DNA of 46,273 nt from Planctomycetaceae bacterium (GTDB lineage: Bacteria > Planctomycetota > Planctomycetia > Pirellulales > PALSA-1355): assembly GCA_003153375.1 (NCBI GenBank), contig PLYM01000233.1:1-46273 (forward strand), read 5' to 3'. Of this stretch, positions 25,723 through 37,934 are shown in pieces (position 1 is the stretch's first letter; the number at the start of each line of letters is the position of its first letter). Below the pieces are notes generated by a model, which searched no databases, was not told where the DNA came from, and was given only the letters and a program-made list of their open reading frames with translations. Made by a program: the position numbers and the translations under genes.

Positions 25723-26043
25723 TCATGAGTCGCGGTGAATCCACGGGTAGCGGTGTGGCTCGATCAGGTGGCGAAATGTCCAGAACACCCGGTACGCCAG
25801 CCCGACCCTGTCCTCGGCGACGAGCCGCGACTTGGTTTCGCAAATGTGCGAGCGAACGGTGGCGTGGCTGATATCGAGTACGGACGCGATCTCTTTGTCC
25901 TTGTGGCTTTGAATCACCAGGCCGACGACTTCGGCCTGTCGCGGCGAGAGGGACAACCGCTGCACGATTTCGTACCACTCTTCGCGGCTGAACAGCGGCG
26001 GAAGTGATGGATCGTGATGGAATGCGGTTTTGCGTCTCGCCAT
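25723..26043 (-). CDS. LuxR-type HTH protein, DNA-binding domain only (A)
   Basis: A 106-aa protein starting MARRKTAFHHDP at ATG 26043 (AGGG upstream). The core LSPRQAEVVGLVIQSHKDKE followed by IASVLDISHATVRSHI is a LuxR/FixJ-type (GerE) helix-turn-helix. There is no receiver or ligand domain. A family-specific preface (PLFSREEWYEIVQRL) and tail (VGLAYRVFWTFRHL) are shared with the neighbour at 26190-26495. Such stand-alone regulators recur in planctomycete accessory regions next to ArdC. It is the last gene of the minus-strand ArdC operon and probably regulates that element; inferred. Confidence 0.8.
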   Translation of the reverse strand: MARRKTAFHHDPSLPPLFSREEWYEIVQRLSLSPRQAEVVGLVIQSHKDKEIASVLDISHATVRSHICETKSRLVAEDRVGLAYRVFWTFRHLIEPHRYPWIHRDS

Positions 26044-26189
26044 TTCGTACCCTGCGCGTCGGCTAATAACCGGGCGACGGACACCCGTCGCCCGGCCGCA
26101 TCCATCGCGGCTAACTGGCCATCCTTGCCGATGAGCCGAAGATACTCGGAATGATCGAGCCTGCGCATCCTCATTTCCCCCATCATCAT
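25914..26189 (-). CDS. Possible small ORF between the two LuxR genes
   Basis: Its ATG directly follows the stop of LuxR gene B, and the first ~45 codons (MRRLDHSEYLRLIGKDGQLA…) look coding by codon choice. However, its 3' third overlaps LuxR gene A in another frame, which is unusual. It could be a real short peptide that has lost its proper stop, or chance. No family recognised. Confidence 0.25.
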   Translation of the reverse strand: MMMGEMRMRRLDHSEYLRLIGKDGQLAAMDAAGRRVSVARLLADAQGTKWRDAKPHSITIHHFRRCSAAKSGTKSCSGCPSRRDRPKSSAW

Positions 26190-26495
26190 TTATGATGATG
26201 TACGGCGTTCGACGACCTGGCGAAAGCACTCAAATACCCGGTAGGCGAGCCCCATTCGATCGGCGGCTTGCAATCGCGACCTGGCGAGTTTGATGTGCGA
26301 GTAGACCGTCGTTTCGTCGACGCGGAGAATTTTGGCGATCTCCTTGTCCTTCTTGCTCTGCATCGCCAAGCCCACCACCTGTGCTTGCCGGGGCGATAAG
26401 GCAAGGGTGCGGACGATCGCCCGCCACTCTTCCAGGGCGAAGAGCGGCGGACGACTTTGATCGTCGCGGGCAGGGGTGGCGGGACGCTGGGCCAT
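26190..26495 (-). CDS. LuxR-type HTH protein, DNA-binding domain only (B)
   Basis: A 101-aa paralogue of the protein at 25723-26043: PLFALEEWRAIVRTLALSPR, then QAQVVGLAMQSKKDKEIAKI and the recognition helix DETTVYSHIKLARSRL, ending GLAYRVFECFRQV. It is again a GerE/LuxR helix-turn-helix without any sensory domain. The gene starts 17 bases after the zinc-ribbon gene, so the two are almost certainly co-transcribed. The differing recognition helices (SHATVRSHI against DETTVYSHI) suggest that the two regulators bind different sites. Confidence 0.8.
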   Translation of the reverse strand: MAQRPATPARDDQSRPPLFALEEWRAIVRTLALSPRQAQVVGLAMQSKKDKEIAKILRVDETTVYSHIKLARSRLQAADRMGLAYRVFECFRQVVERRTSS

Positions 26496-26975: not shown

Positions 26976-27887
26976 TCAGGCTGCCGGCTGCGGCTGCAAG
27001 CCGTGCAGGAAATCGACGGCCCGGCTGGCGTATGAGGCGGCCTGGAACACGGCCCGTTTGTCCTCTTTCAACACCTTGAGCCAGGATTCGATATAGCTGG
27101 CGTGGTCCTCGCGTACTTCCGGCGTGATGTGCAGGTCGGCACACAAGAAAGCGGAGCCAAGCTCGGCGACCAGTTCTTCCATCGCGTAGCCTTCGTCTCC
27201 CCATTTCTTGCGGCCAAGCTCGCGGTTGAGCCGTGATGTGTGCCGCGTCCAGTGGGTCAACTCATGGGCCAGCGTGGCGGCGTGCGATTCGGAATCGCGG
27301 AAGGTCTCGAAGGGCGGCATCCGGACATAGTCAGCCTCGAACGCGTAATAGGCTCGGTTTCCGCCGTAGCGAATGTCTGCCTTGGTGTTGGCAAAGAACC
27401 GCTCGGCCTGCTCGATGCGTTGCAATGGTTGAGTCTGCACGGCCTTGGCCAGCTCATAGAAATAGCCTGGCAATCCCTCCACCTGGTCGGCATTGAAAAC
27501 CGTGTATTGCTTGAGAAACGGAATCTCCTGATCGATCTCGTCGCCTGCCTCGGTCTTGTCCTTCTTGGTGAATTTGCTGGCATAGACCACCGGCGAGCCG
27601 TGCTCCCCCTTCTTGACGAAGGCCCCAAGCTCCCTTGCCTGGTTGAAGGTCAGCCAGAACGGGGACACAAAACCGGACATTTCAGCGGACATCCAAAGTG
27701 TGATGATGTTGATGCCGGAATATTTCTGGCCGTTGTGCCGCAAAGGTCGCGTGATGCGTCCGGCGGCGTGCTCGGCGTTCCAAGGCTTGAGCCAAGGCCG
27801 TGTGCCTCGCTCAAGCTCCTCGACGATGCGAGAAGTAACGCGGGTGTAAATGTCGGTGCGGGTCGTTTGGTCGGTTGTGGTCGTCAT
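26976..27887 (-). CDS. ardC: ArdC-family antirestriction protein (ssDNA-binding N-domain plus zincin metallopeptidase domain)
   Basis: A 303-aa protein. Residues ~10-135 form the ArdC N-terminal ssDNA-binding domain (RIVEELERGTRPWLKPW, the IITLWMSAEMSGFVSPFWLT segment, GAFVKKGEHGSPVVYASKF). The C-terminal zincin-like domain carries His208-Glu-Leu-Thr-His212 (ATLAHELTHWTRH) and a downstream Glu in MEELVAELGSAFLCADL, the expected third zinc ligand. ArdC proteins travel on plasmids and integrative elements and protect incoming DNA from restriction. It is the first gene of a five-gene minus-strand operon. Its leader contains a strong hairpin. It marks this region as conjugative or mobilisable element DNA. 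Confidence 0.92.
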   Translation of the reverse strand: MTTTTDQTTRTDIYTRVTSRIVEELERGTRPWLKPWNAEHAAGRITRPLRHNGQKYSGINIITLWMSAEMSGFVSPFWLTFNQARELGAFVKKGEHGSPVVYASKFTKKDKTEAGDEIDQEIPFLKQYTVFNADQVEGLPGYFYELAKAVQTQPLQRIEQAERFFANTKADIRYGGNRAYYAFEADYVRMPPFETFRDSESHAATLAHELTHWTRHTSRLNRELGRKKWGDEGYAMEELVAELGSAFLCADLHITPEVREDHASYIESWLKVLKEDKRAVFQAASYASRAVDFLHGLQPQPAA

Positions 27888-27921: not shown

Positions 27922-27965
27922 TCCCCTTACGCGAAACGCGCTCGCGTTTTCCGGCGGAAGGGGGA
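27922..27965 (-). promoter_or_regulatory. Two-tier hairpin in the ardC leader
   Basis: An inner stem AAACGCG/CGCGTTT with a 2-base loop sits inside an outer pairing TCCCCTT/AAGGGGA. It begins 35 bases upstream of the ardC ATG. It could be an operator, an attenuator or a structure affecting single-stranded transcription of early-transfer genes; none can be chosen from sequence. Confidence 0.4.
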
Positions 27966-28075
27966 CGAAGTCCGACAATCCAGGGGGAGGGCAGTCAAGG
28001 ACGACCGGAGACGGAGGGCACCGGTCTGCACGAAGCGAAGCGAAGGAAGATCGGGAGGAGGCCACCGCAGGTCGC

Positions 28076-28272
28076 GTGGCACCGATCCTTGACGGGCCGG
28101 GGGATGTGCCCCTAACACCATTCCATGCGAGAAGCACGTCTTCAGTCACCGATAGGTGTCAGTCAGAGGCCAAAGGCCGACGCACCATGTGGGCGGAAGG
28201 GGCAATGCGTCCGATCAGGACCGCAGCGAAGCGCAGCCCGGAAGAACGCGGTCGCCGAAGGCGAGGTGCCCG
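28076..28272 (+). ncRNA. Candidate structured RNA, copy 1
   Basis: About 197 bases closed by GGCACC … GGTGCC (the GTCGCG just before also pairs with CGCGAC at 28284-28289). Inside, in order, are a weak TGC/GCA hairpin, CACC-GATA-GGTG, GGCC-AAA-GGCC, a G-rich region, and TCGCC-GAA-GGCGA. Copy 2 at 37734-37934 has the same elements with changes in loops and compensating changes in stems, notably TCGCCC-GCA-GGGCGA and CATGC-GAGGA-GCATG. No protein frame is shared by the copies. The plus strand is favoured because one loop is GAAA there. HEARO/omega-type element RNA is one family to test; I cannot assign it. Confidence 0.5.
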
Positions 28273-28593
28273 ACAATACGAGACGCGACGTTGCTCTTAT
28301 TTCAGGTTCTCGGCGAGAGCAGTTTTGTCTTGTAGAGTGGCGAAATAAAAGACAGGACGACAGCATTTGCATTTGCATCATGTTGCCTATAAGCAATTCT
28401 ATGCAATTAGCGACGCGACTTGTTCGGACGCGTAAATATCCATAAGTGCTTGCCATTATGCATCTTACGATTTCAGATTAGCCCAGAAGAAGTTGCGTCG
28501 CCAAAGAGCACCTGATACACTTTTGTGAGCTGTTATTTCGCCCTCATTCAAATCATCGAGCGGCTTGAAAAAACAGCGACAGATCGACATCTG
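28273..28593. other. Non-coding stretch after RNA copy 1
   Basis: A/T-richer than its surroundings, with no credible frame. It is bounded on the right by a strong plus-strand terminator, so it may be the 3' part of a transcript that begins at or before the candidate RNA. Confidence 0.35.
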
Positions 28594-28626
28594 CCCCCTC
28601 GCGCGCTCAAGTGGAGGGGGTTTTTT
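28594..28626 (+). terminator. Intrinsic terminator on the plus strand
   Basis: Stem CCCCCTC/GAGGGGG with a 13-base loop, followed directly by six T. This is a textbook rho-independent terminator for plus-strand transcription. The nearest upstream plus-strand feature is the candidate RNA at 28076; no plus-strand protein gene precedes it for several kilobases. Confidence 0.8.
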
Positions 28627-28682
28627 ATTGCGCCGCAATAATTCTCTCTCGATCGTAAGCCTGTGATGATTGGAGAGAGCGG

Positions 28683-28925
28683 ATGATGAGTCTGAATCCA
28701 AAAAACTTGATGAGCGGTTTGATGGAGATTGTGAAGCGGCTGCTCGGGGCATCTGCAAGCCAGCGGACTGATATTGTGCGAGAGGATACGACCACGCAAA
28801 AGGAAGAAATCACAATAACGTTGACAAGGAGGACGGAGACAATCCGACAGTTGAAGGGAACCAATGCGACGGGATCCAAGATTGAGTTCGACGGGCCGGG
28901 TGACGGCGCAGAGTCGAGTCAGTAG
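28683..28925 (+). CDS. Hypothetical small protein (80 aa)
   Basis: Starts MMSLNPKNLMSGLMEIVKRL behind GAGAG, with an amphipathic N-terminal helix. It is followed by a Thr/Glu-rich segment (DTTTQKEEITITLTRRTETI) that could form strands and a short Gly/Asp-rich tail. No signal peptide and no known family. It lies just after the terminator and 45 bases before the SRAP gene, so it could be the first gene of that transcript. Confidence is limited by length. Confidence 0.5.
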   Translation: MMSLNPKNLMSGLMEIVKRLLGASASQRTDIVREDTTTQKEEITITLTRRTETIRQLKGTNATGSKIEFDGPGDGAESSQ

Positions 28926-28970
28926 CGAAGGACTTACGCCGGCGACTTGGTTAAGCCAGAAGAGTGAATC

Positions 28971-29636
28971 ATGTGTGGCCGTTTTACGCTTCGAACGAAG
29001 CCTCGCGAGTGGGCTGAGGTTTTCGCCGTCGTTCGCCAATTAGAGGGTGAATGGCAGCCTGCCTACAACATCGCCCCGACGCAGAACGTCGTGTGTGTGC
29101 GTGATCGCGACGAGCGGGAACTCTTCAAGGCCAGGTGGGGCCTCATTCCAAGCTGGGCCAAGGATGCGAAAATCGGCAACTCGTGCATCAATGCGCGTGT
29201 CGAGACCGTCGACACGCAGCCTGCCTTCCGCTCGGCGTTCAAGAAACGTCGTTGTCTCGTGATGGCCAATGGCTTCTATGAGTGGCGGCGCGGCGTCAAG
29301 CAGCCACACTTCATCAGCTTGAAGTCGGGCGAGCAAATGGCATTCGCGGGACTGTGGGAATTCTGGAAGTCGCCGGACGGCCCGGTCGAAAGCTGCACGA
29401 TCTGCACGACGGAGGCCAACGAGATGATGAGCGAACTGCACGATCGAATGCCGGTCATCCTGCCGCGGCCGATCGTCGACCACTGGCTCGATCCGACCGT
29501 GAACGACGTCGATGAGCTGAAGCCAATGCTGCGGCAATTTCCAGCGGATGAAATGCAGGCCTGGCCGGTGGGCAAGGTCGTGGGCAACGTCCGCAATCAG
29601 GGACCGGAGTTGATGGAGCGAGTCGCGGTTGCTTGA
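28971..29636 (+). CDS. yedK: SOS-response-associated peptidase (SRAP, YedK/HMCES family)
   Basis: A 221-aa protein with all SRAP hallmarks: catalytic Cys2 exposed after removal of Met1 (MCGRFTL), YNIAPTQ with Asn33, RWGLIPSWAKD, INARVETV, GFYEWRR with Glu104, and ELHDRMPVIL with His157. The family forms a stable thiazolidine crosslink between Cys2 and abasic sites in single-stranded DNA, protecting them from cleavage. Full length for the family. SRAP genes are frequent cargo in mobile and phage DNA. A fragment of a second SRAP gene lies at 31245-31329, on the other side of the unknown 497-aa gene. Confidence 0.95.
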   Translation: MCGRFTLRTKPREWAEVFAVVRQLEGEWQPAYNIAPTQNVVCVRDRDERELFKARWGLIPSWAKDAKIGNSCINARVETVDTQPAFRSAFKKRRCLVMANGFYEWRRGVKQPHFISLKSGEQMAFAGLWEFWKSPDGPVESCTICTTEANEMMSELHDRMPVILPRPIVDHWLDPTVNDVDELKPMLRQFPADEMQAWPVGKVVGNVRNQGPELMERVAVA

Positions 29637-29720
29637 TGGTCGGTGCTGCGTTAGGGAGGCGCGTTTTGCGGACTTTGAGATACGGACAAAAAATGGCAAT
29701 GCTTTTTGAGGATGAAAACG

Positions 29721-31214
29721 ATGATTACTGCAAGAGTGGCAGCCGAGGCACTGGCGTCCTTCTGCAAGGACGACAAGGTTGGTATTGGCATCTCGCTTGA
29801 CATATTCAACGCATTACTGAACCAGCAACTCAGGCACGTCGACGCATATGCGAAGAAGTTGATATCGACTTACGCGTTCAAGTCGCTCAGCGTTGTGTTC
29901 TCGCCAGGAGTCGATGTGGCAAAAGTTAAGACGTCGTTGAGAAACGTCAGCTCAACTGGCGGAGGAGGTGCCCATGCCGGGCTGTCGCTCGATGGCTTTG
30001 CGGTCAATTTGGAGGTCGCTTTAGACGGGAAACATGTCTATTCGTGCAGGCTCGAATGGACGATTCTTCTTGGCCGTCTCGCGGTTGAGGATGGTGCCGT
30101 CGTCGTTGTGGTGCAGGATCAGAAATATGAACATAAGGGAATTGATCGGATTTGGGAGCGCGATGCGTCGCTAAAGAGCCACTTTGAATCTACTCATGGA
30201 TTCACCGACGATGCATGGAAAGACCTTCGGTCGCATTTGGATGGAGCGGTCATCGCCTCGGCGCCAACCATATCAAGCAGCGTGCTTCGTTCAATTGAGA
30301 CCCCGAATCTGTTCAGTGTCTTCTCAGGTATCATATTCGAGAAACAGTTCGATTTGGCCCTCAATAACGATTTGCTGTTGCTGGCGGCTCCCGGAAAACT
30401 TGACTTTACGCAATGCGCAACGGCACGAGCGAGGGGAACGACTCAGGTCTCAGTGACTGCAACCGTAGATGGGAAACCGGCAGATATCGACAACCCGAAA
30501 GCGTCGATTCGAGCGCACGTCGCAGATAATTCGGCGAGTAGGCAGTACCCCGAGGTGGGTGCGCGAGCCAAAGAGACTGGCCCATCGGGGACGGGAGACT
30601 TGTTTTTACGTCTCCCTCTTCCACTTCTCACTTTAAATTTCGATGGTGCGATTAAGCCGGCGGCACAGTTCGGCGAAAAACCCAGGGTGTTGATTTTCTA
30701 CGTTCGGTACAGCGGCACCCTAAGTCCAAAAAAAGATATCAAAATCGAATTGACAAGCGAGCGCCCACTCGAATTTACCATATATGCGCCCACAAAGGTG
30801 GAGGGACAAGTTGCGGCAGGAATCAATCTCGCGTGTCTGTCGTATGAACCGGCTGGCGTCATGTATGCTGGAACTATCGAACCGCTAGAGGTAGTGATGC
30901 AGTTGACGCTGTGCACAGATCGCATGGAGTTGACGTTTGTGTCGCGGCTTGGGCCAACGCTCTGCAACGACATGGCGTTCCAAAGCTCGCCACGTCCGCC
31001 CTTCCCACTCGACCTAATCGCAAATTTAGTAATCGCGTTGATACTGAAGCTTGTCGTCCAGTCGAAGGCGGATACCGTTCTATCGACAACCCGAATACCC
31101 CTTGGAAATCTTCGACTGCTAGAAGGACTCGGGAAGATAAGACCGGAGCTCGCGACGTCTAAAGATTCCCATCGCGGGGCGACTATCGGAGTGAAGGTTG
31201 ATTATGTCAAGTGA
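29721..31214 (+). CDS. Unknown 497-aa protein
   Basis: Start chosen at ATG 29721, which has GAGGA nine bases upstream; ATG 29712 and TTG 29706 are in frame but lie within that site. The protein has an N-terminal helical part (AEALASFCKDDKVGIGISLD, with QQLRHVDAYAKKLISTYAF), then mainly beta sequence in long amphipathic strands with small Gly/Ser linkers. One hydrophobic stretch (PLDLIANLVIALILKLVV) near residue 450 could be an amphipathic or membrane-touching helix. No Cys cluster, nucleotide-binding or nuclease motif is seen. The helix-then-elongated-beta layout recalls lipid-binding TULIP-type folds, but this is only an impression. It is inserted between an intact SRAP gene and an SRAP remnant. 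Confidence 0.65.
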   Translation: MITARVAAEALASFCKDDKVGIGISLDIFNALLNQQLRHVDAYAKKLISTYAFKSLSVVFSPGVDVAKVKTSLRNVSSTGGGGAHAGLSLDGFAVNLEVALDGKHVYSCRLEWTILLGRLAVEDGAVVVVVQDQKYEHKGIDRIWERDASLKSHFESTHGFTDDAWKDLRSHLDGAVIASAPTISSSVLRSIETPNLFSVFSGIIFEKQFDLALNNDLLLLAAPGKLDFTQCATARARGTTQVSVTATVDGKPADIDNPKASIRAHVADNSASRQYPEVGARAKETGPSGTGDLFLRLPLPLLTLNFDGAIKPAAQFGEKPRVLIFYVRYSGTLSPKKDIKIELTSERPLEFTIYAPTKVEGQVAAGINLACLSYEPAGVMYAGTIEPLEVVMQLTLCTDRMELTFVSRLGPTLCNDMAFQSSPRPPFPLDLIANLVIALILKLVVQSKADTVLSTTRIPLGNLRLLEGLGKIRPELATSKDSHRGATIGVKVDYVK

Positions 31215-31244
31215 CTGCGCACACTACGCTACGCTCCCCTGCAG

Positions 31245-31329
31245 GCGTACGAATTGCGAACCTGGCCGGTTGGCAAAACCGTGGGCAATGTACGTAATCA
31301 AGGACCGCAGTTGGTGGAGCCGATCGACG
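31245..31329 (+). pseudogene. C-terminal remnant of a second SRAP gene
   Basis: The plus frame reads LRTWPVGKTVGNVRNQGPQL, which aligns with the end of the intact SRAP protein (MQAWPVGKVVGNVRNQGPEL). The nucleotide sequence is similar but not identical, so it is a diverged relative rather than a fresh duplication. The frame continues past the family's normal end into the neighbouring gene's 3' region. Nothing of the N-terminal SRAP domain remains. Confidence 0.75.
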
Positions 31330-31349
31330 CTCCTAGACCTGACGCTCGC

Positions 31350-31562
31350 CTAGCTCGGCAGGTTCTTCATCAAATGGTGGAACTGGATCGATAGCTCATT
31401 CACCGCTGCTCTCGCTTTCTTGACGGCTTCATAGACTGGATCTTTCGCCGGGAAATGCTTCTGATGCATCCGGCCTTCAAAACAATCGAGCCAACGGAGT
31501 TCGGCCTGCGCTCGACGGAATAGCTTTTCGATTTGCCACAGTTCTAGGCTGTTGCTGTTCAT
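31350..31562 (-). CDS. 70-aa helical protein, divergent from the GIY-YIG gene
   Basis: Start at ATG 31562 with GGAGG seven bases upstream. The protein (MNSNSLELWQIEKLFRRAQA … CFEGRMHQKHFPAKDPVYEA … AVNELSIQFHHLMKNLPS) is three short helices with many aromatic and basic residues and no membrane segment. Unknown family. It is divergently arranged with the GIY-YIG gene 72 bases away, so the two probably share a control region. The broken copy at 4220-4424 keeps the same upstream box (CAAATGTCCA) but has lost its GIY-YIG partner. It could be a regulator or antitoxin-like partner of the nuclease; speculative. Confidence 0.7.
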   Translation of the reverse strand: MNSNSLELWQIEKLFRRAQAELRWLDCFEGRMHQKHFPAKDPVYEAVKKARAAVNELSIQFHHLMKNLPS

Positions 31563-31634
31563 CGCCAAGCCTCCGCTTGAGGATTCTAAGCACTAGTAGT
31601 CAAATGTCCACATACCGGGCCAATGGAGCGATTG

Positions 31635-32093
31635 ATGGAAGGCAATGTTGAGAGACTCAAGGCCATCGGATTCAAGCTCGCTGGCCGATGGTCTCGCGGA
31701 GAGTTAGGTATCGCTTTTGAATTATTCGATTGTGCGACCGCGCGCAACGTGCTTTACGCGTTTGTGACCGACGGCCAGGTAATGTATGTCGGCAAGACTG
31801 TGCAGCCGCTACGCACCCGCATGGCGGGCTACAAAAACCCCGGGCCCACGCAATCGACGAACATTCGAAACAAGAAGACGATCGATGAAAGGCTGGCCAG
31901 GGGGCAACAGGTTGAGATATTCGTGCTGCCCGACAATGGCCTGCTGCATTACGGCGGCTTCCATGTGAATTTGGCGGCCGGTCTCGAAGACAGCGTTGTT
32001 CGCGAACTGAGTCCGCCGTGGAACGGCGGACAGAAGGAAGCGGCAAACGAAACATTGCAACCAGTGGCGGACGAGTCATCGAGTCCTGAATGA
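31635..32093 (+). CDS. GIY-YIG nuclease-family protein
   Basis: A 152-aa protein started at ATG 31635 (GGAG upstream); this start matches the broken copy at 34947. The GIY-YIG module runs from ~40 to 130: the first motif is VLYAFVTDG (Tyr41), the second QVMYVGKT (Tyr51), the arginine is in LRTRMAGY (Arg60/62), and the late Glu and Pro-Trp-Asn are in GLEDSVVRELSPPWNGG (Glu117, Asn129). All residues expected for cleavage are present. A 40-residue N-terminal region (RLKAIGFKLAGRWSRGELGI) may recognise the target. It is a single-domain, probably stand-alone nuclease of a defence or mobile module. Confidence 0.82.
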   Translation: MEGNVERLKAIGFKLAGRWSRGELGIAFELFDCATARNVLYAFVTDGQVMYVGKTVQPLRTRMAGYKNPGPTQSTNIRNKKTIDERLARGQQVEIFVLPDNGLLHYGGFHVNLAAGLEDSVVRELSPPWNGGQKEAANETLQPVADESSSPE

Positions 32094-32144
32094 AACGCCG
32101 CGAGGACCGGGCGCTGTCTTGAGTGAATAGCGCAACGGAGAAGG

Positions 32145-34058
32145 TTAATCGAGGCGAACAGCGTTCGGCGAGTTGTCGCTGGCCGCCAGGAGTGATCCAT
32201 CATCGAGGGCTTCTTTGAGCTCGCCCGGCGACAGAACTCGCGGCAGGTCGTCGGTGACCCAAAATCGAGCGTCACGGCTGTGAATGAACTCTTTGAAAGG
32301 GGTCACCCCGATCGGAAGAATGTGGCGATAGGCACGAACGTCATAATTTGTTCCAAGAGGATGCTCGCGGAGCCACTGGGCTTTTTCGTCTACATCGGTT
32401 AATGCCTTTTCGACGACTTGCTTGCGAAAGGCGAGGGCTGTAGGATCGCCCTTTTCCACTGCAATGGCCCGTGCCGACGCGCGACATTCGCAGATGACAA
32501 GGACATCGTCCAAAGCAAACGCAGCGTCAACTTGGCGCGACGTGTTGTCCGTGGCGTGCAGCTCGCCGGTTGGCAGTGCGGAAGCGCCACGGTGCGTGAA
32601 TAATTCCAACGCCGCCCCTTTGAAATTCTGGTCTGGGAGGGTCACGCCGTAAAAGAGATAGTTCAGCCTTTGCAGCAAGTAGCCGTAGTCAATGAATACC
32701 TGGTCCGGACCGTTGGGGATGAACACGGCGTGGGGACCGCCGTAGCCAATGTCGATCTCAGCACGCTTGGCGTCTGTGAGAGACAAATAGTCGAACGCGG
32801 CATCGACGTCGACGCTGGCCGCGTCGAACGGCAGCCCATTGAGCTCGATTGCGGTCGGGAGAGTTTCGTTGATCCATCTCTTGATATCGGCAGGCTTGCC
32901 CGGTGCTTCGTAGGCCCGCTGCCACATGCGGAAGAAATATTCGGGTTGGCGGCTCCAGGTCACAAAGAGGTGATCGATCATCGCTGCGATGACAGCGATG
33001 ATTGATTCCAACGAAACACCGTTGCGTTGGTGGAACGGCTCACTAAAGGGAGAGTGTGCGGTGTAGAACGCCGCGATGTTCATCGGCGTCCAGATGAAGT
33101 TCGGCGAATCGTTTTTTTGCGTTGCAAGCTCCGCCTTAATGAAATGCTCAAAAATCGGCCGGAGTTTCTCATAGCTGACTCGATCGGCGTTCCATTGCGG
33201 GAGAACTATGAGGCCACGTTCTCCCTTTTTGAATTCCTGGTTGAACACCGTGCCAGTGGCAGACGCTGAAAAAGCCAGTCCGCGGTGATCGAAATGAGTG
33301 ACCAAGTAATCCAAGTCGTCGCCCCGATCGTCCTCTACCCATTTCTCGCCATCCATGACTACCAGCGGCGCGCCCTTGCCGACGGTGCGCAATTGAGCCA
33401 TCGTCCTCCAGGCTTCGTAGGCGAGTTTTTCGGTTTGCAAGAACTCTCGGTACTCGTTTAGCCCGAAATCGGTGAGTACGAGTTGTGGGTGGCTGACTAG
33501 CAGGTCCAATATCGCCTGGTGCCCCTTCGCCGCCAGGAAGCCTTGAAGAATTGCTTCTGGCGCAACCTGATTCGAGATGGCAACTCGATTGCAGAGCTCA
33601 ACCTTTGCGTATTTTTGAATCGCCGCGTCGAGGACGGCGCGGGTGATTTGGATTGTGGTCGCGCATTTCTCGGACCCGATTGCATGCGGCGCAAATCGCC
33701 GGTTGACGTGCAACCAATAGGCTAATGACTGGGGGTGGATGACGCCTCGGAGTGCCATTTCCACGCTTTGCAGATACGCCTCAAGGAAGCCCCGCGCCTT
33801 GCCTGGATCGTAGGTGCCGGGAGGAATTAGCTGCCAGAAGGAGCGGCGCTTGGGCGAAGGGCCGCGATCGTAGCCTTGCTGGCTGAGGGTGGCGCCAAAG
33901 TCATAAAACGCCGGGTGGTAGTATTCGCCGAACCACACCGTTGGTTTGCGTAGTTGAGCAGCACGGCGTTTTTTCGGTTTCTTGCGCTGCTTTTTGAGCT
34001 GTTTCCGGCGATTTGCCTGTTCGAGTTTCTGCTGACGTTGTCGATCGCGCTTGCTCAT
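32145..34058 (-). CDS. Large protein of unknown family (637 aa) with a possible C-terminal nuclease-like motif
   Basis: Start at ATG 34058. The first ~35 residues are extremely basic (Lys/Arg/Gln-rich), suggesting nucleic-acid or ribosome contact. A long mixed alpha/beta region follows without a recognised domain. Near residues ~510-527, DAAFALDDVLVICECRASAR resembles the Asp…Glu-x-(Lys/Arg) strand pair of restriction-endonuclease-like folds, with Arg in place of Lys. A following strand (YRHILPIGVTPFKEFI) would fit a NERD-like core. There is no signal peptide or membrane helix. It is convergent with the GIY-YIG gene and divergent from the Nmad2 gene. The nuclease idea is inference only. Confidence 0.6.
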   Translation of the reverse strand: MSKRDRQRQQKLEQANRRKQLKKQRKKPKKRRAAQLRKPTVWFGEYYHPAFYDFGATLSQQGYDRGPSPKRRSFWQLIPPGTYDPGKARGFLEAYLQSVEMALRGVIHPQSLAYWLHVNRRFAPHAIGSEKCATTIQITRAVLDAAIQKYAKVELCNRVAISNQVAPEAILQGFLAAKGHQAILDLLVSHPQLVLTDFGLNEYREFLQTEKLAYEAWRTMAQLRTVGKGAPLVVMDGEKWVEDDRGDDLDYLVTHFDHRGLAFSASATGTVFNQEFKKGERGLIVLPQWNADRVSYEKLRPIFEHFIKAELATQKNDSPNFIWTPMNIAAFYTAHSPFSEPFHQRNGVSLESIIAVIAAMIDHLFVTWSRQPEYFFRMWQRAYEAPGKPADIKRWINETLPTAIELNGLPFDAASVDVDAAFDYLSLTDAKRAEIDIGYGGPHAVFIPNGPDQVFIDYGYLLQRLNYLFYGVTLPDQNFKGAALELFTHRGASALPTGELHATDNTSRQVDAAFALDDVLVICECRASARAIAVEKGDPTALAFRKQVVEKALTDVDEKAQWLREHPLGTNYDVRAYRHILPIGVTPFKEFIHSRDARFWVTDDLPRVLSPGELKEALDDGSLLAASDNSPNAVRLD

Positions 34059-34252
34059 AACCCGCAAGTTATTCAAAAGCGGGCGTCACGGGCAAGGCGA
34101 TTTTCTGGTGCCAGCGTCCAAAGGACTGGACGAGAGAATAGTTGAGCCGTGGGTAAAAACAGGCTCTAATACGCTGGCGATGGGCAATTGGTCGGCTGCA
34201 CGAAAACGGTCGCGTTGTCGGTCACCGGTCGCAGAAATCTAAGGGCAATGCC

Positions 34253-34861
34253 GTGGAAATCTTCTCCTACGTCATCACGCATGATTTCGGATTCGCTCCA
34301 AATCCGTTCGGCGGGTTTCTCACGTTGGCGACTTGCAAGCCGCGAATCAGGTTGAGTGCCGCCAAAGGTGACTTGATCGTCGGAACTGGCTCAGCTTCAA
34401 CCGTCGGAAACCAGAAACTGGTGTATGCGGCAAAGATCGATGACGTCATCTCCATCGAAGAGTATGGCGCCTCGTCGGCGTATGAAATCAAACGGCCGGT
34501 GGCTGGCGGGGAATGGTGGCGAAGGCACGGCGACAACATTTATTTCATGGCCGGTGGAGAATGGAAGCAGCGCCGCAACATCCATCACCCCCTGGAGAAT
34601 ATGGCCCGTGACCTTGGTGGTGAGAATGTGCTGGTCTGCAAGCAATTCTGGTATTTGGGAGACGCCGCGATCCAAATACCGGACGAATTCGCCGACATCG
34701 TGAAAAAAGGGCCTGGGCACAAGAGGATCAGAAACCCGGTACTGGTGAGGCAGTTCGTGGATTGGTTGATGAAGCTGCCGAAAGGCGTTCACGGATCGCC
34801 GGAAACCAGGCCCAAATCAACCGAACGCTGCGTTTCGGCTCCGCGCACGCCTCACTGTTGA
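34253..34861 (+). CDS. Nmad2-family (nucleotide-modification-associated domain 2) protein
   Basis: A 202-aa protein started at GTG behind AAGGG. The N-terminus, MEIFSYVITHDFGFAPNPFG then GFLTLATCKPRIR and GDLIVGTGSAS, matches the Nmad2 domain (PF18753) as I know it: 'YsYvv..D.GFAPNPF.g..TLAtCKP.IR..a..GDwvvGtGs'. The domain was defined by its association with modified-base systems in phages and mobile elements; its exact reaction is unknown. The last ~20 residues after KGVHGSPE are irregular and may be read-through beyond a damaged end. A broken GIY-YIG gene follows in the same direction. Confidence 0.8.
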   Translation: MEIFSYVITHDFGFAPNPFGGFLTLATCKPRIRLSAAKGDLIVGTGSASTVGNQKLVYAAKIDDVISIEEYGASSAYEIKRPVAGGEWWRRHGDNIYFMAGGEWKQRRNIHHPLENMARDLGGENVLVCKQFWYLGDAAIQIPDEFADIVKKGPGHKRIRNPVLVRQFVDWLMKLPKGVHGSPETRPKSTERCVSAPRTPHC

Positions 34862-34946
34862 AGTCAGACCGTCGCACTCTGTTCGGAAGGGCAGTTATTT
34901 GCGGGCGGGACCGTCGAAGGCGGTCGCTAGGAGACATTATCAGTCG

Positions 34947-35211
34947 ATGGAAAACAAGCTCGATCGGCTAAAGAATATGGGGGTTCAAAGTCACTGGCCA
35001 ATGGAAGCAGGCTGAGGCTCGGATCGTGTGCGACCTGATGGATTTCGCGGCATCGAGGAATGTGCTGTATGCGTTCGTTGTGGATGGTGAGTTGATGTAC
35101 GTCGGCCAGACGGCGAAGTCGCTACGTACTCGGATGGCGGATACAGGTCTCCCGCGGCTGGTGGTCTTCCACGTGTTGAGCGGCGCGCAGTTTGTGGAAT
35201 GCGTGGATTGA
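34947..35211 (+). pseudogene. Broken copy of the GIY-YIG protein
   Basis: From ATG 34947 the sequence reads MENKLDRLKNMG, then one extra G in a run of five shifts the frame; continuing in the shifted frame gives FKVTGQWKQAEARIVCDLMD followed by the GIY-YIG motifs VLYAFVVDGELMYVGQTAKS and LRTRMAD. The protein then ends early without the Glu/Asn half of the domain. It aligns from its first codon with 31635-32093. It is therefore frameshifted and truncated. Together with the intact copy it flanks the 637-aa and Nmad2 genes. Confidence 0.8.
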
Positions 35212-35340
35212 ACTAAATAAACCATCGGGATACAGCGCCACCGGCTGATTTGCTGCCCGAACGACCTCATCCCAGTTGGTCGAGGCGCACAACGGCTAGA
35301 CCGATCGCCGAGGCCAGTTCCCTTTCCGAAAAGCGGCGTC

Positions 35341-37185
35341 TCAACCGGCGCGAATATGGCCGACCCGGCGACAATAAAAAGTGAGTAGCGCAACCGTAGC
35401 TAGGCCGCCCAATACAAATGTGCTTGGTTCGGGCACATTAGCAAGTACAATCCCACTTACCGGATTGCCGTCCGCATCGGTGAAGAGATTGTTAGCGGCG
35501 GAAAGGGTATGCAAAAAATCAGCCGTTCCGACCCCACCCCCGATCCCAGCTTGGCCGGTGACGTCAACGTACACGTCGAATAACATGACGAACGATTCGC
35601 CAGGCAACAATGTGATCACACCAGTTTTCAAATCATAGCTCGGTGAATAAAGCTGTGACGCGGAAACGGAGAAAGGCTCATTCAGCACATGATCGCTGAG
35701 TGCGATGCCGGCCAGCGAACTATAAGTTCCGTAGTCGGGATGGAGTCCGATGAAGTAGTTAGTTGCATCACCGCCGCCCGCAGCGATCGCGGAACTGAGT
35801 TTCTCCGGGTCCAGTGCCGAAATTCGTGCATCGACTCGGCCCTCCAATATCCCGAATGAATTGCTCACCGTACCTTCGAGGACGGCATTAATGCTGAAAA
35901 TTTTCGTCTGATCTGTTGCGTTCACGTAAGATTGCCATGCGATGCCACGGCCGGTGCCTTCGGCCGAATGACTGTTGATGCCTTGCGCTTCCGCGAATCC
36001 GCTCGCTAACGCGCCAACCTGCGGCCCTGCGCCTGTGATGACGCCACGCCCCGTGCCACTCCCGCCCGAAATCTGGGATTGAAAGACGCCATTGCCGCCA
36101 CTCTGCGCCGCGATCCCATTAGGATTGCCGTTGATTGGGACGTCATCTTTCTCAGTTCCGCGAGCCGCTGTTCCCGCCAACAAGGGCGGCAAGGATTCCG
36201 GCAGCTTGATCGCGAGGGCCACCGGGTTGTAAAGTCCCGAGACCAAGGCTTTATTTATCGCCGCACCGGAGACGGCATTGTACTCCCCGACCCTAGCGTT
36301 GCCTTGGAAACCTTCTGAGACAAATAGATTGCCGCCGGCCGCTGTAACGGCACCCGGGCCGACCAAGCCTGATACAAACGCAGAGTTCACCGTTGCTCCT
36401 GTGGCGGCATTGTATTCGCCAATCGTGTTATTCAGAGTACTAGTGACGAATAGAGTTCCGCCGGACACGGCAAAACCTCCGGGAAGGGCTAATCCCGATA
36501 ATAGCGCTGCGTTCACTGTTGCCCCAGTAGTCGCATTGTACTCACCGATTGTCCCGCTGCCGGCAACGTATCCATTGGCGTTAAATGTGCCTTCATTCAT
36601 CACATACAGATTCCCTCCAGACACAGCAATTGTTAATGGACGACTGGTTAAGCCTGATACAAGTGAATCATTCACACTAGCCCCAGTGACGGCGTCAAAT
36701 TCCTTGATGACGCCGGCGCCCGTGCTCGCTTGATCCAAGACAAAGATATCGCCTCCGGAAACTGCGATGGCAGTCGAGGATTGGCTAAGACCAGAGATCA
36801 GGTTCGCATTTATTGCCGCGCCGGAAGTGGCGTCGTATTCGCCAATTCTTCCGTTACCAAGCGAACCGCTTGCGACGAAGAGATTTCCTCCGGATACTGC
36901 CAGTCCGTACGGGGTAGTTAACCCTGGAATGAGTGAAGGGGTAATGCCTGCTCCCGACACGCTATAATCGCCAATGGTATTTTGGAAATCATCGGATACA
37001 AATATTTCGGCCCATGCGATTGGTGATACTTGAGCGGTAAATATGAATACAGCAATGGTCTTTGTTAGAACGAGTAAGCCCAGCCTTAGTGTCGGAGTTC
37101 GGCAACGGCGACATGACCGCACGCGATAGTCAAAACAAGAGTTATTGATGTGATAAACTTGCGACGGATGCGGGAATCGTGTCAT
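35341..37185 (-). CDS. Large beta-propeller-type PEP-CTERM protein
   Basis: A 614-aa exported protein. Start at ATG 37185 (GGAGG upstream). A long basic leader precedes the signal helix (LGLLVLTKTIAVFIFTAQVS…AWA). Then come about seven NHL-like repeats of ~43 residues with the core 'GLAVSGGNLFVas…IGEYnA.TGA.vN..LvSGL', expected to build a beta-propeller. A second domain follows (AEGTGRGIAWQSYVNATDQT … YYAL-type strands), and the C-terminus is VPEPSTFVLGGLATVALLTF with CRR, a PEP-CTERM sorting signal. A 16-bp palindrome lies 80 bases upstream. It is probably a cell-surface or matrix protein. Confidence 0.85.
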   Translation of the reverse strand: MTRFPHPSQVYHINNSCFDYRVRSCRRCRTPTLRLGLLVLTKTIAVFIFTAQVSPIAWAEIFVSDDFQNTIGDYSVSGAGITPSLIPGLTTPYGLAVSGGNLFVASGSLGNGRIGEYDATSGAAINANLISGLSQSSTAIAVSGGDIFVLDQASTGAGVIKEFDAVTGASVNDSLVSGLTSRPLTIAVSGGNLYVMNEGTFNANGYVAGSGTIGEYNATTGATVNAALLSGLALPGGFAVSGGTLFVTSTLNNTIGEYNAATGATVNSAFVSGLVGPGAVTAAGGNLFVSEGFQGNARVGEYNAVSGAAINKALVSGLYNPVALAIKLPESLPPLLAGTAARGTEKDDVPINGNPNGIAAQSGGNGVFQSQISGGSGTGRGVITGAGPQVGALASGFAEAQGINSHSAEGTGRGIAWQSYVNATDQTKIFSINAVLEGTVSNSFGILEGRVDARISALDPEKLSSAIAAGGGDATNYFIGLHPDYGTYSSLAGIALSDHVLNEPFSVSASQLYSPSYDLKTGVITLLPGESFVMLFDVYVDVTGQAGIGGGVGTADFLHTLSAANNLFTDADGNPVSGIVLANVPEPSTFVLGGLATVALLTFYCRRVGHIRAG

Positions 37186-37266
37186 ACCGTGTCCTCCGAA
37201 GAGTCGACCTGAACGAGCAAGTCGCAGGGGAAAGCAAAAGAAACACTGAGCGGACAAAGAAACGGC

Positions 37267-37282
37267 GTGTCACATGTGACAC
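37267..37282. promoter_or_regulatory. 16-bp perfect palindrome upstream of the PEP-CTERM gene
   Basis: GTGTCACATGTGACAC is perfectly symmetrical and lies 82 bases before the minus-strand start at 37185. It resembles sites bound by dimeric regulators (CRP/FNR- or TetR-size), but its half-site GTGTCAC is in the opposite sense to the usual CRP box. Confidence 0.5.
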
Positions 37283-37733
37283 CCGATCTTAAAAAAATGC
37301 TCAGTAGCGACTTTCCCGGGATTCTATTGCGGACAGAGGTGGGGGGAACCATCGTCCAGACACCACGCGGCCGAATGTACCGTCCGCCAAAGGTAGAGTC
37401 AAGGGCTTTACTTGCAATTGTCACCAACTTCGCCAATACGTGCACCTACGCGAGCTCTGGCAGGCTTTTAACTGATGTCGATTTGTAATAGCAGTACTCA
37501 GCTAATTTCAGCGCGATCGCCGTCCTTGCCTCCGAACCATCTGCGTTCGTTCTCGCGTCGCAATCTTGTCGGCCTGGGCTTCGTTACCTTGCGGAAGAGG
37601 ATTCACCTGGCCGGCCGCAACAAATAAATTGATGGTCTTGGCCTGACGCCGGCTCGGTATCGGAGCACCTAGGCCGGCGACTTGTCGAGCCGATCGCGAT
37701 TGCGGATGTAGGTAAGGGTGGTCGGCAGGTCGC
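37283..37733. other. Intergenic stretch, no supported gene
   Basis: No convincing frame. On the minus strand near 37690-37715 a short reading (TYIRNRDRLDKSPA) looks as if it came from a coding sequence, but it is too brief to name. The stretch ends at the second structured-RNA copy. Confidence 0.35.
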
Positions 37734-37934
37734 GTGGCACCGATCCTTGACGGGCCGGGGAATGTGCCCCTTAAACCCGGTTCATGCGAGGAGCATGTCT
37801 TCAGTCACCGAAAGGTGTCACTCAGAGGCCGAAGGCCGACGCACCAGTCGGGCGGAAGCGGGCGTCAGCGTCCGTTAGGACCGAAGCGGAGCGCAGCCCG
37901 GGAGCACGCAGTCGCCCGCAGGGCGAGGTGCCAC
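37734..37934 (+). ncRNA. Candidate structured RNA, copy 2
   Basis: The same layout as 28076-28272. The closing stem is GTGGCACC/GGTGCCAC (eight pairs). The internal hairpins are CATGC-GAGGA-GCATG, CACC-GAAA-GGTG (GNRA loop on the plus strand), GGCC-GAA-GGCC and TCGCCC-GCA-GGGCGA. Differences from copy 1 fall mostly in loops or preserve pairing. It lies 200 bases upstream of the imported S8/pilin genes. Both copies point the same way, 9.66 kb apart. Confidence 0.5.

Follow-up and report, generated by a model that had tools for sequence, protein, structure and literature searches.

A conserved structured element adjoining the ArdC gene in Planctomycetes and Proteobacteria, probably controlling this gene as single-stranded DNA in plasmid leading regions

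The element and its copies in the window

The DNA analysed here, hereafter the window, is a whole stretch of 46,273 nucleotides (nt) from a Planctomycetaceae bacterium (GCA_003153375.1, contig PLYM01000233.1). It carries a gene for the antirestriction protein ArdC and, head-to-head with this gene, a structured element (copy A), part of which is repeated further right (copy B; Table 1). The element is real and widely conserved. In the most likely reading, it belongs to the leading region of plasmids and acts there as single-stranded DNA to turn on ArdC early.

An earlier note on this DNA had described a duplicated element of about 200 nt in which paired changes compensate each other in the stems. 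The duplication itself stands, as two direct copies (28067-28270 and 37725-37932), about 85% identical, are found 9.66 kb apart. The bounds were wrong, and family alignments show that in copy A the conserved part extends to the left by about another 150 nt. One of the hairpin changes that had been named is indeed present, TCGCC-GAA-GGCGA in copy A corresponding to TCGCCC-GCA-GGGCGA in copy B. The structure is drawn on the + strand of copy A, which is opposite to ArdC. With R1, a covariance model of the core domain, copy A scores 114.7 bits (27981-28114) and the region beside copy B 24.6 bits (E 0.0065; 37671-37772). Copy B is thus truncated or decayed, whereas copy A is the intact version of the same element. 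A third copy was found at a contig edge (C263). In the alignment of homologues, the sequence to the right of the sharp right end of the element is variable, and the middle hairpins are absent in some members of the family.

Open reading frames of 80-106 amino acids (aa) overlap copy A. The element is judged to be non-coding in spite of them, since the family alignment is rich in length differences and compensatory pairs, which bears out what had been claimed from the two copies.

Table 1. Coordinates of the element, its parts and its partner genes in the window.
Feature	Position	Strand	Basis and remarks
Copy A, full structured element, ~350 nt	about 27922..28270 (left end approximate)	+	family alignments, R1 match
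Gene-proximal hairpin next to the ArdC start	27922..27965	+	DNA fold; counterpart hairpins of different sequence in homologues
Small hairpin GGAC-GAA-GTCC	27963..27973	+	sequence and alignment
Core domain, common to proteobacterial elements; covariance model R1	27981..28114	+	R1 match and alignments
Long-range stem, left arm GTCAAGGA	27994..28001	+	sequence, family alignment
Long-range stem, right arm TCCTTGAC, with conserved TTGAC	28086..28093	+	sequence, family alignment
G5/C4 hairpin closing the core	28099..28112	+	sequence, alignment
Planctomycete-type tail domain, variable hairpins, sharp end at GGTGCC	28113..28270	+	homologue alignment
Copy B, right part of the element only	37725..37932	+	copy comparison, R1
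ArdC antirestriction gene, ArdcN and MPTase-PolyVal domains	26976..27887	-	Pfam; head-to-head with copy A, adjoining its left end
Two small frames behind ArdC, LuxR/GerE-like cluster, tandem	25723..26495	-	protein clusters; cluster in 10 of 28 oriented loci (Pfam GerE was run on the L130 protein of this cluster and not on the two frames themselves)

Conservation of the structure and of its position at ArdC

Taken singly, the copies fold no better than shuffled sequences, whether as RNA (z -0.56 and -1.15) or, for the full copy A, as DNA (z -0.41). It is therefore the family alignment, rather than the pair of copies, that makes the case for a structure. A first alignment, A2, contains 40 of 43 upstream regions from the class, after removal of L076, which is cut by its contig end, and of L096 and L105, which failed the anchor pattern. 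In A2, 90.8% of the pair cells are standard, and double-sided changes affect 15 of the 35 pairs, in 111 cells as compared to 27.0 in shuffles; in slid controls, the paired share drops to 35.9-50.0%. A second alignment, A3, is fitted to model R1 and contains 56 R1 matches from ArdC loci of named genomes belonging to several phyla. Here, 31 of the 35 pairs show double-sided changes (18.2 in shuffles), which occupy 287 cells (94.7 in shuffles). The compensating changes that had been proposed are thus found in family alignments, far above shuffles and slid controls. The anchor pattern of A2 itself contained CTTGA, and conservation of the motif in the long-range stem is better judged on A3, 51 rows of which are not identical to the A2 rows used for training; among these 51 matches, the motif reads TTGAC in 34, TTGAT in 10 and another TTGA form in 3, and is lacking in 4. 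All these results show that the element belongs to a conserved, covarying and non-coding structured family.

The position of the element is equally constant. Within the class, ArdC is adjacent and divergent in 42 of the 59 loci that were fetched; the 17 others include contig ends and truncated copies and, among the 12 of these that were inspected by eye, an ArdC-remnant-like frame is seen in L099 and a ParA-like frame in L103. With the ArdC protein as query, 127 relatives were found in named genomes, and 80 loci were kept. R1 matches these loci 62 times at E<=1, and 58 of the matches, corresponding to 58 of the 80 loci (47 at E<=0.01), are separated from the ArdC match by 41-122 nt and lie on the other strand. 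Among the 47 loci at E<=0.01, 26 are labelled neither planctomycete nor plain 'bacterium' and are chiefly from Alphaproteobacteria. These results show that the conserved unit consists of the element and ArdC, in a head-to-head position that is fixed across phyla. There is no sign that copies A and B enclose a mobile unit, ArdC lying to the left of copy A.

Related DNA is present in 10 of 97 genomes of relatives, in at least 57 of 397 genomes in a class-wide DNA search and, with R1, in at least 9 of 392 genomes phylum-wide, the own genome being included each time. The last two counts are lower bounds, as 2 candidates were scored per genome in the class-wide search, and at most 8, after strict filters, in the phylum-wide one. 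A blastn search of plasmids and phages with the stretch as originally bounded gave no match.

The genes that recur near the element are of plasmid type (neighbour clusters were annotated from one member each). A relaxase-family cluster, annotated through L126, whose protein is a TrwC relaxase (E 7e-71), is found in 13 of the 28 oriented loci, always on the strand opposite to ArdC, and clusters of RepA, ParA, ParB and tyrosine integrases recur as well. Unlike the position of ArdC, the distance and side of the relaxase vary among loci. In the own genome, a TrwC relaxase is encoded on another contig. On finished plasmids, the element adjoins ArdC, with mobF near, in Paludisphaera PALBO2, and it adjoins radC in Thiothrix. 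Tautonia sociabilis and Paludisphaera borealis are carriers available in culture. When a locus contains several copies, they share one strand, as observed in all 9 counted loci (L198, L227, L223, L185, L200, L230, L156, L161 and L158); L172, L180 and L206 were left out of this count, since their pieces belong to one element each.

Relation to the Frpo regions of plasmid F and proposed role

A blastn search with one alphaproteobacterial element retrieved 58 plasmid records, with Klebsiella, Raoultella, Escherichia and Salmonella as the source of at least 31. Two of these plasmids, both typed IncF, were opened, and in both the match lies in unannotated sequence upstream of the ssb-psiB block, on the strand opposite to these genes. 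An alphaproteobacterial profile trained without F matches F twice (E 7.6e-8 and 1.5e-6, at 58.1 kb and 63.5 kb), at the gene-distal end of two related regions of about 500 nt, located upstream of ssb and of a gene at 64.0 kb. Frpo2 has been described upstream of ssb and Frpo1 upstream of ygeA, both acting as single-strand promoters (Couturier et al., 2023; PMC9849209), and the 64.0-kb gene would be ygeA. A model of this F-type end module, R2, was trained with the F rows, and the profile alpha2 leaves out 8 poorly alignable sequences of the 42 upstream regions from non-planctomycete ArdC loci.

In alphaproteobacterial elements, a core of the planctomycete type and an end module of the F type occur together. 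Frpo is thus linked only indirectly, as the planctomycete core is that of the proteobacterial elements and the end module of the latter is that of F. On plasmid 2 of Nitrosospira, also a finished plasmid, the match is clear for the core (E 1.9e-6) and weak for the end module (E 0.04). At this locus (L240, Nitrosospira multiformis plasmid 2, 4820-5134), core and end module occur without ArdC, the adjoining gene on that side encoding an IS3 transposase.

Like Frpo1 and Frpo2 of F (ssiD; ssi2 and ssi3 of ColIb-P9), the element is a long, structured, non-coding stretch directly upstream of what would be early genes of a conjugative element. It likewise occurs in repeated copies on one strand, opposite to ArdC, as the module of F is opposite to its leading genes, and its proteobacterial relatives have the same end module. 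It differs from them in that its partner is ArdC and not ssb or ygeA, in a different phylum, and in that the end module of F was not found in the planctomycete copies, nor the core in F, nor a -10 box here. ArdC of plasmid R388 provides a second comparison. It is the same kind of protein, it binds single-stranded DNA and is needed in the recipient, and its gene is placed in the leading region by the R388 annotation and by the work devoted to it (PMC7213743); neither R1 nor R2 found an element in R388.

Conserved structure, a fixed place at ArdC across phyla, plasmid-type neighbours and a proteobacterial module shared with the Frpo regions of F are the observations from which our interpretation starts. 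We consider it probable that copy A is a leading-region control element that folds as incoming single strand and starts early ArdC expression or priming. The leading region of a conjugative or mobilizable element, which enters the recipient first, would carry copy A. The folding molecule would be DNA and, if the planctomycete element is transferred with this polarity, the template strand for ArdC would take up the conserved structure upon single-stranded entry. The folded strand could then recruit the RNA polymerase of the recipient, transcription starting from the element, or prime synthesis, and ArdC and the small genes behind it could be made ahead of the complementary strand. Once the DNA is duplex, the fold would be lost and expression shut off, as described for Frpo1 and Frpo2 of F. 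Leading-region anti-defence genes with Frpo-type promoters have been reported on the transferred strand (Samuel et al., 2024; PMC11541004).

A broader possibility, to which we give slightly less than an even chance, is that these elements form an old, modular family spanning several phyla and acting as folded single-stranded DNA on incoming plasmids and integrative and conjugative elements. They would have a core common to Planctomycetes and Alpha-, Beta- and Gammaproteobacteria, an end module common to Proteobacteria and the Frpo regions of F, and a tail proper to planctomycetes. ArdC, and elsewhere perhaps radC, would be switched on ahead of second-strand synthesis by elements that lack a canonical -10 box. 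If so, single-strand promoters would be a general bacterial device and not an enterobacterial speciality. An element fixed at the ArdC start across phyla would also help to locate leading regions that BLAST with known Frpo sequences misses. One Frpo survey relied on BLAST with five known Frpo/ssi sequences and on a consensus-guided search in chosen islands, and another on BLAST with five known and 13 putative sequences; ArdC is mentioned zero times in the main text of either. In the titles and abstract openings of the papers that searches of the open-licence literature listed, subscription papers and preprints lying outside this scope, no ArdC-associated structured element is described.

Strand, folding molecule and alternative explanations

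Several observations weigh against a leading-region element folding as single-stranded DNA. R1, the core model, has no match in F, in R388 or in either of the IncF loci, and the module shared with F was not found in 49 planctomycete sources (one off-site match, E 0.58). As the link to Frpo consequently rests on two different modules, our confidence is slightly lowered. A linear scan revealed neither a -10 box nor any promoter-like site, the folded form being inspected by eye only. By analogy, the best reading is still that the element would work like Frpo; it is not filed as Frpo because no -10 box was found and because the F module was not found in these 49 sources. In addition, 22 of the 80 ArdC loci have no adjacent R1 match, and in planctomycetes the relaxase genes are read in the opposite direction to ArdC, in contrast to the trwC-ardC arrangement of R388. 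G-U pairs exceed A-C pairs on the + strand (41:30 in A2; 84:42 in A3, with shuffles at 126 and 107), an excess that names the strand only weakly and says nothing of the molecule. Finally, the + strand folds better than the - strand in 39/39 planctomycete and 33/33 alphaproteobacterial sequences with DNA energies, and in 34/39 and 28/33 with RNA energies. Shuffled sequences give nearly the same strand difference with DNA energies (-6.36 against -7.14; -5.17 against -7.21), and the stability of the + strand is therefore counted as uninformative.

The loops of the + strand comprise 21 GNYA and 21 GNRA tetraloops and many C-GNA-G triloops, as counted without a shuffle control. Such loop types would be a hint of DNA. 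In F, where DNA is the folded form, there is 1 C-GNA-G triloop on the + strand and there are 3 on the - strand, and the + strand has 8 GNYA and 0 GNRA loops. The loop counts are thus a mixed hint. The module common to the proteobacterial versions and the Frpo regions of F points to a single-stranded-DNA element as more probable than an RNA.

No oriT position was obtained for the planctomycete elements. In the alphaproteobacterial set, two relaxase-like matches (L172 and L180; 26-30% identity) lie on the strand of ArdC, contrary to the planctomycete rule. A search for nic sites beside the alphaproteobacterial genes for the type IV coupling protein gave nothing convincing. In the traC-traA gap of p42a and pAt1D1609a (L233 and L235), an inverted repeat is followed by TATAATTGCG-CCCTT, which, read by eye against a nic consensus, may be the nic region and would place ArdC of these plasmids in the leading region. 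Neither R1 nor R2 matched p42a or pAt1D1609a.

Alternatively, a structured non-coding RNA of the classical kind could be transcribed from the + strand, in the direction leading away from ArdC, and serve as a regulator or a scaffold for the plasmid-type element. The covariation suits RNA equally well, the G-U excess is on the right strand and, with no Rfam family fitting, such an RNA could be new. We nevertheless hold it to be unlikely, given that the linear scan yields no promoter-like site, that a module is shared with Frpo regions acting as folded DNA, and that equal numbers of GNYA and GNRA loops, with the triloops, would hint at DNA.

A single-strand initiation site or another DNA-processing site (for second-strand priming, a replication origin or an origin of transfer), ArdC transcription not being the point, is improbable. 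Relaxase and RepA genes are near in many loci, and Frpo transcripts are described as also priming second-strand synthesis (PMC7736820); the element, however, keeps its place at the ArdC start, whereas the relaxase varies in distance and side, and some members do without the middle hairpins.

The element directly precedes ArdC and might also be the 5' leader of its messenger RNA, a riboregulator folded on the - strand. This is very improbable, albeit disfavoured only and not rejected: the G..A loops, counted without shuffle control, and the G-U pairs favour the + strand, and no constant promoter is evident in the variable sequence past the sharp right end.

The RNA of a HEARO/omega-like mobile element, which had been put forward as the first family to exclude, is hardly conceivable, since its resemblance to HEARO (RF02033, the omega RNA of IscB) in length (a few hundred nt), in multiple hairpins, in the presence of several copies in a genome and in a sharp right end with a variable flank beyond it is outweighed by the absence of HEARO from all-family scan matches, by ArdC as the constant partner and by a sequence common to plasmid leading regions in a plasmid-type context. 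HEARO is not listed for either copy at E up to 10 and was rejected on this ground; its model gave no match in the own genome, the control genomes being silent as well. The recurring neighbours that were annotated are ArdC, TrwC relaxase, RepA, ParA and others, no search aimed at IscB or TnpB having been made. Known Rfam families were likewise rejected, none reaching its gathering score in the window, as the earlier note had expected, nor any curated RNA family in 7 other loci, save a cobalamin riboswitch elsewhere in L211.

The genes between the two copies had been called defence-like. SRAP and Nmad2 domains are indeed found there, and PADLOC gave no match for the 7 window proteins submitted. 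A frame of 156 aa (31623-32093) looks GIY-YIG-like by eye, Pfam giving nothing at E 0.001. The SRAP (HMCES-type) gene occupies 28971-29636 and, 1.7 kb further on, 93 nt (31245-31337) are 74% like its 3' end, apparently the remnant of a second copy.

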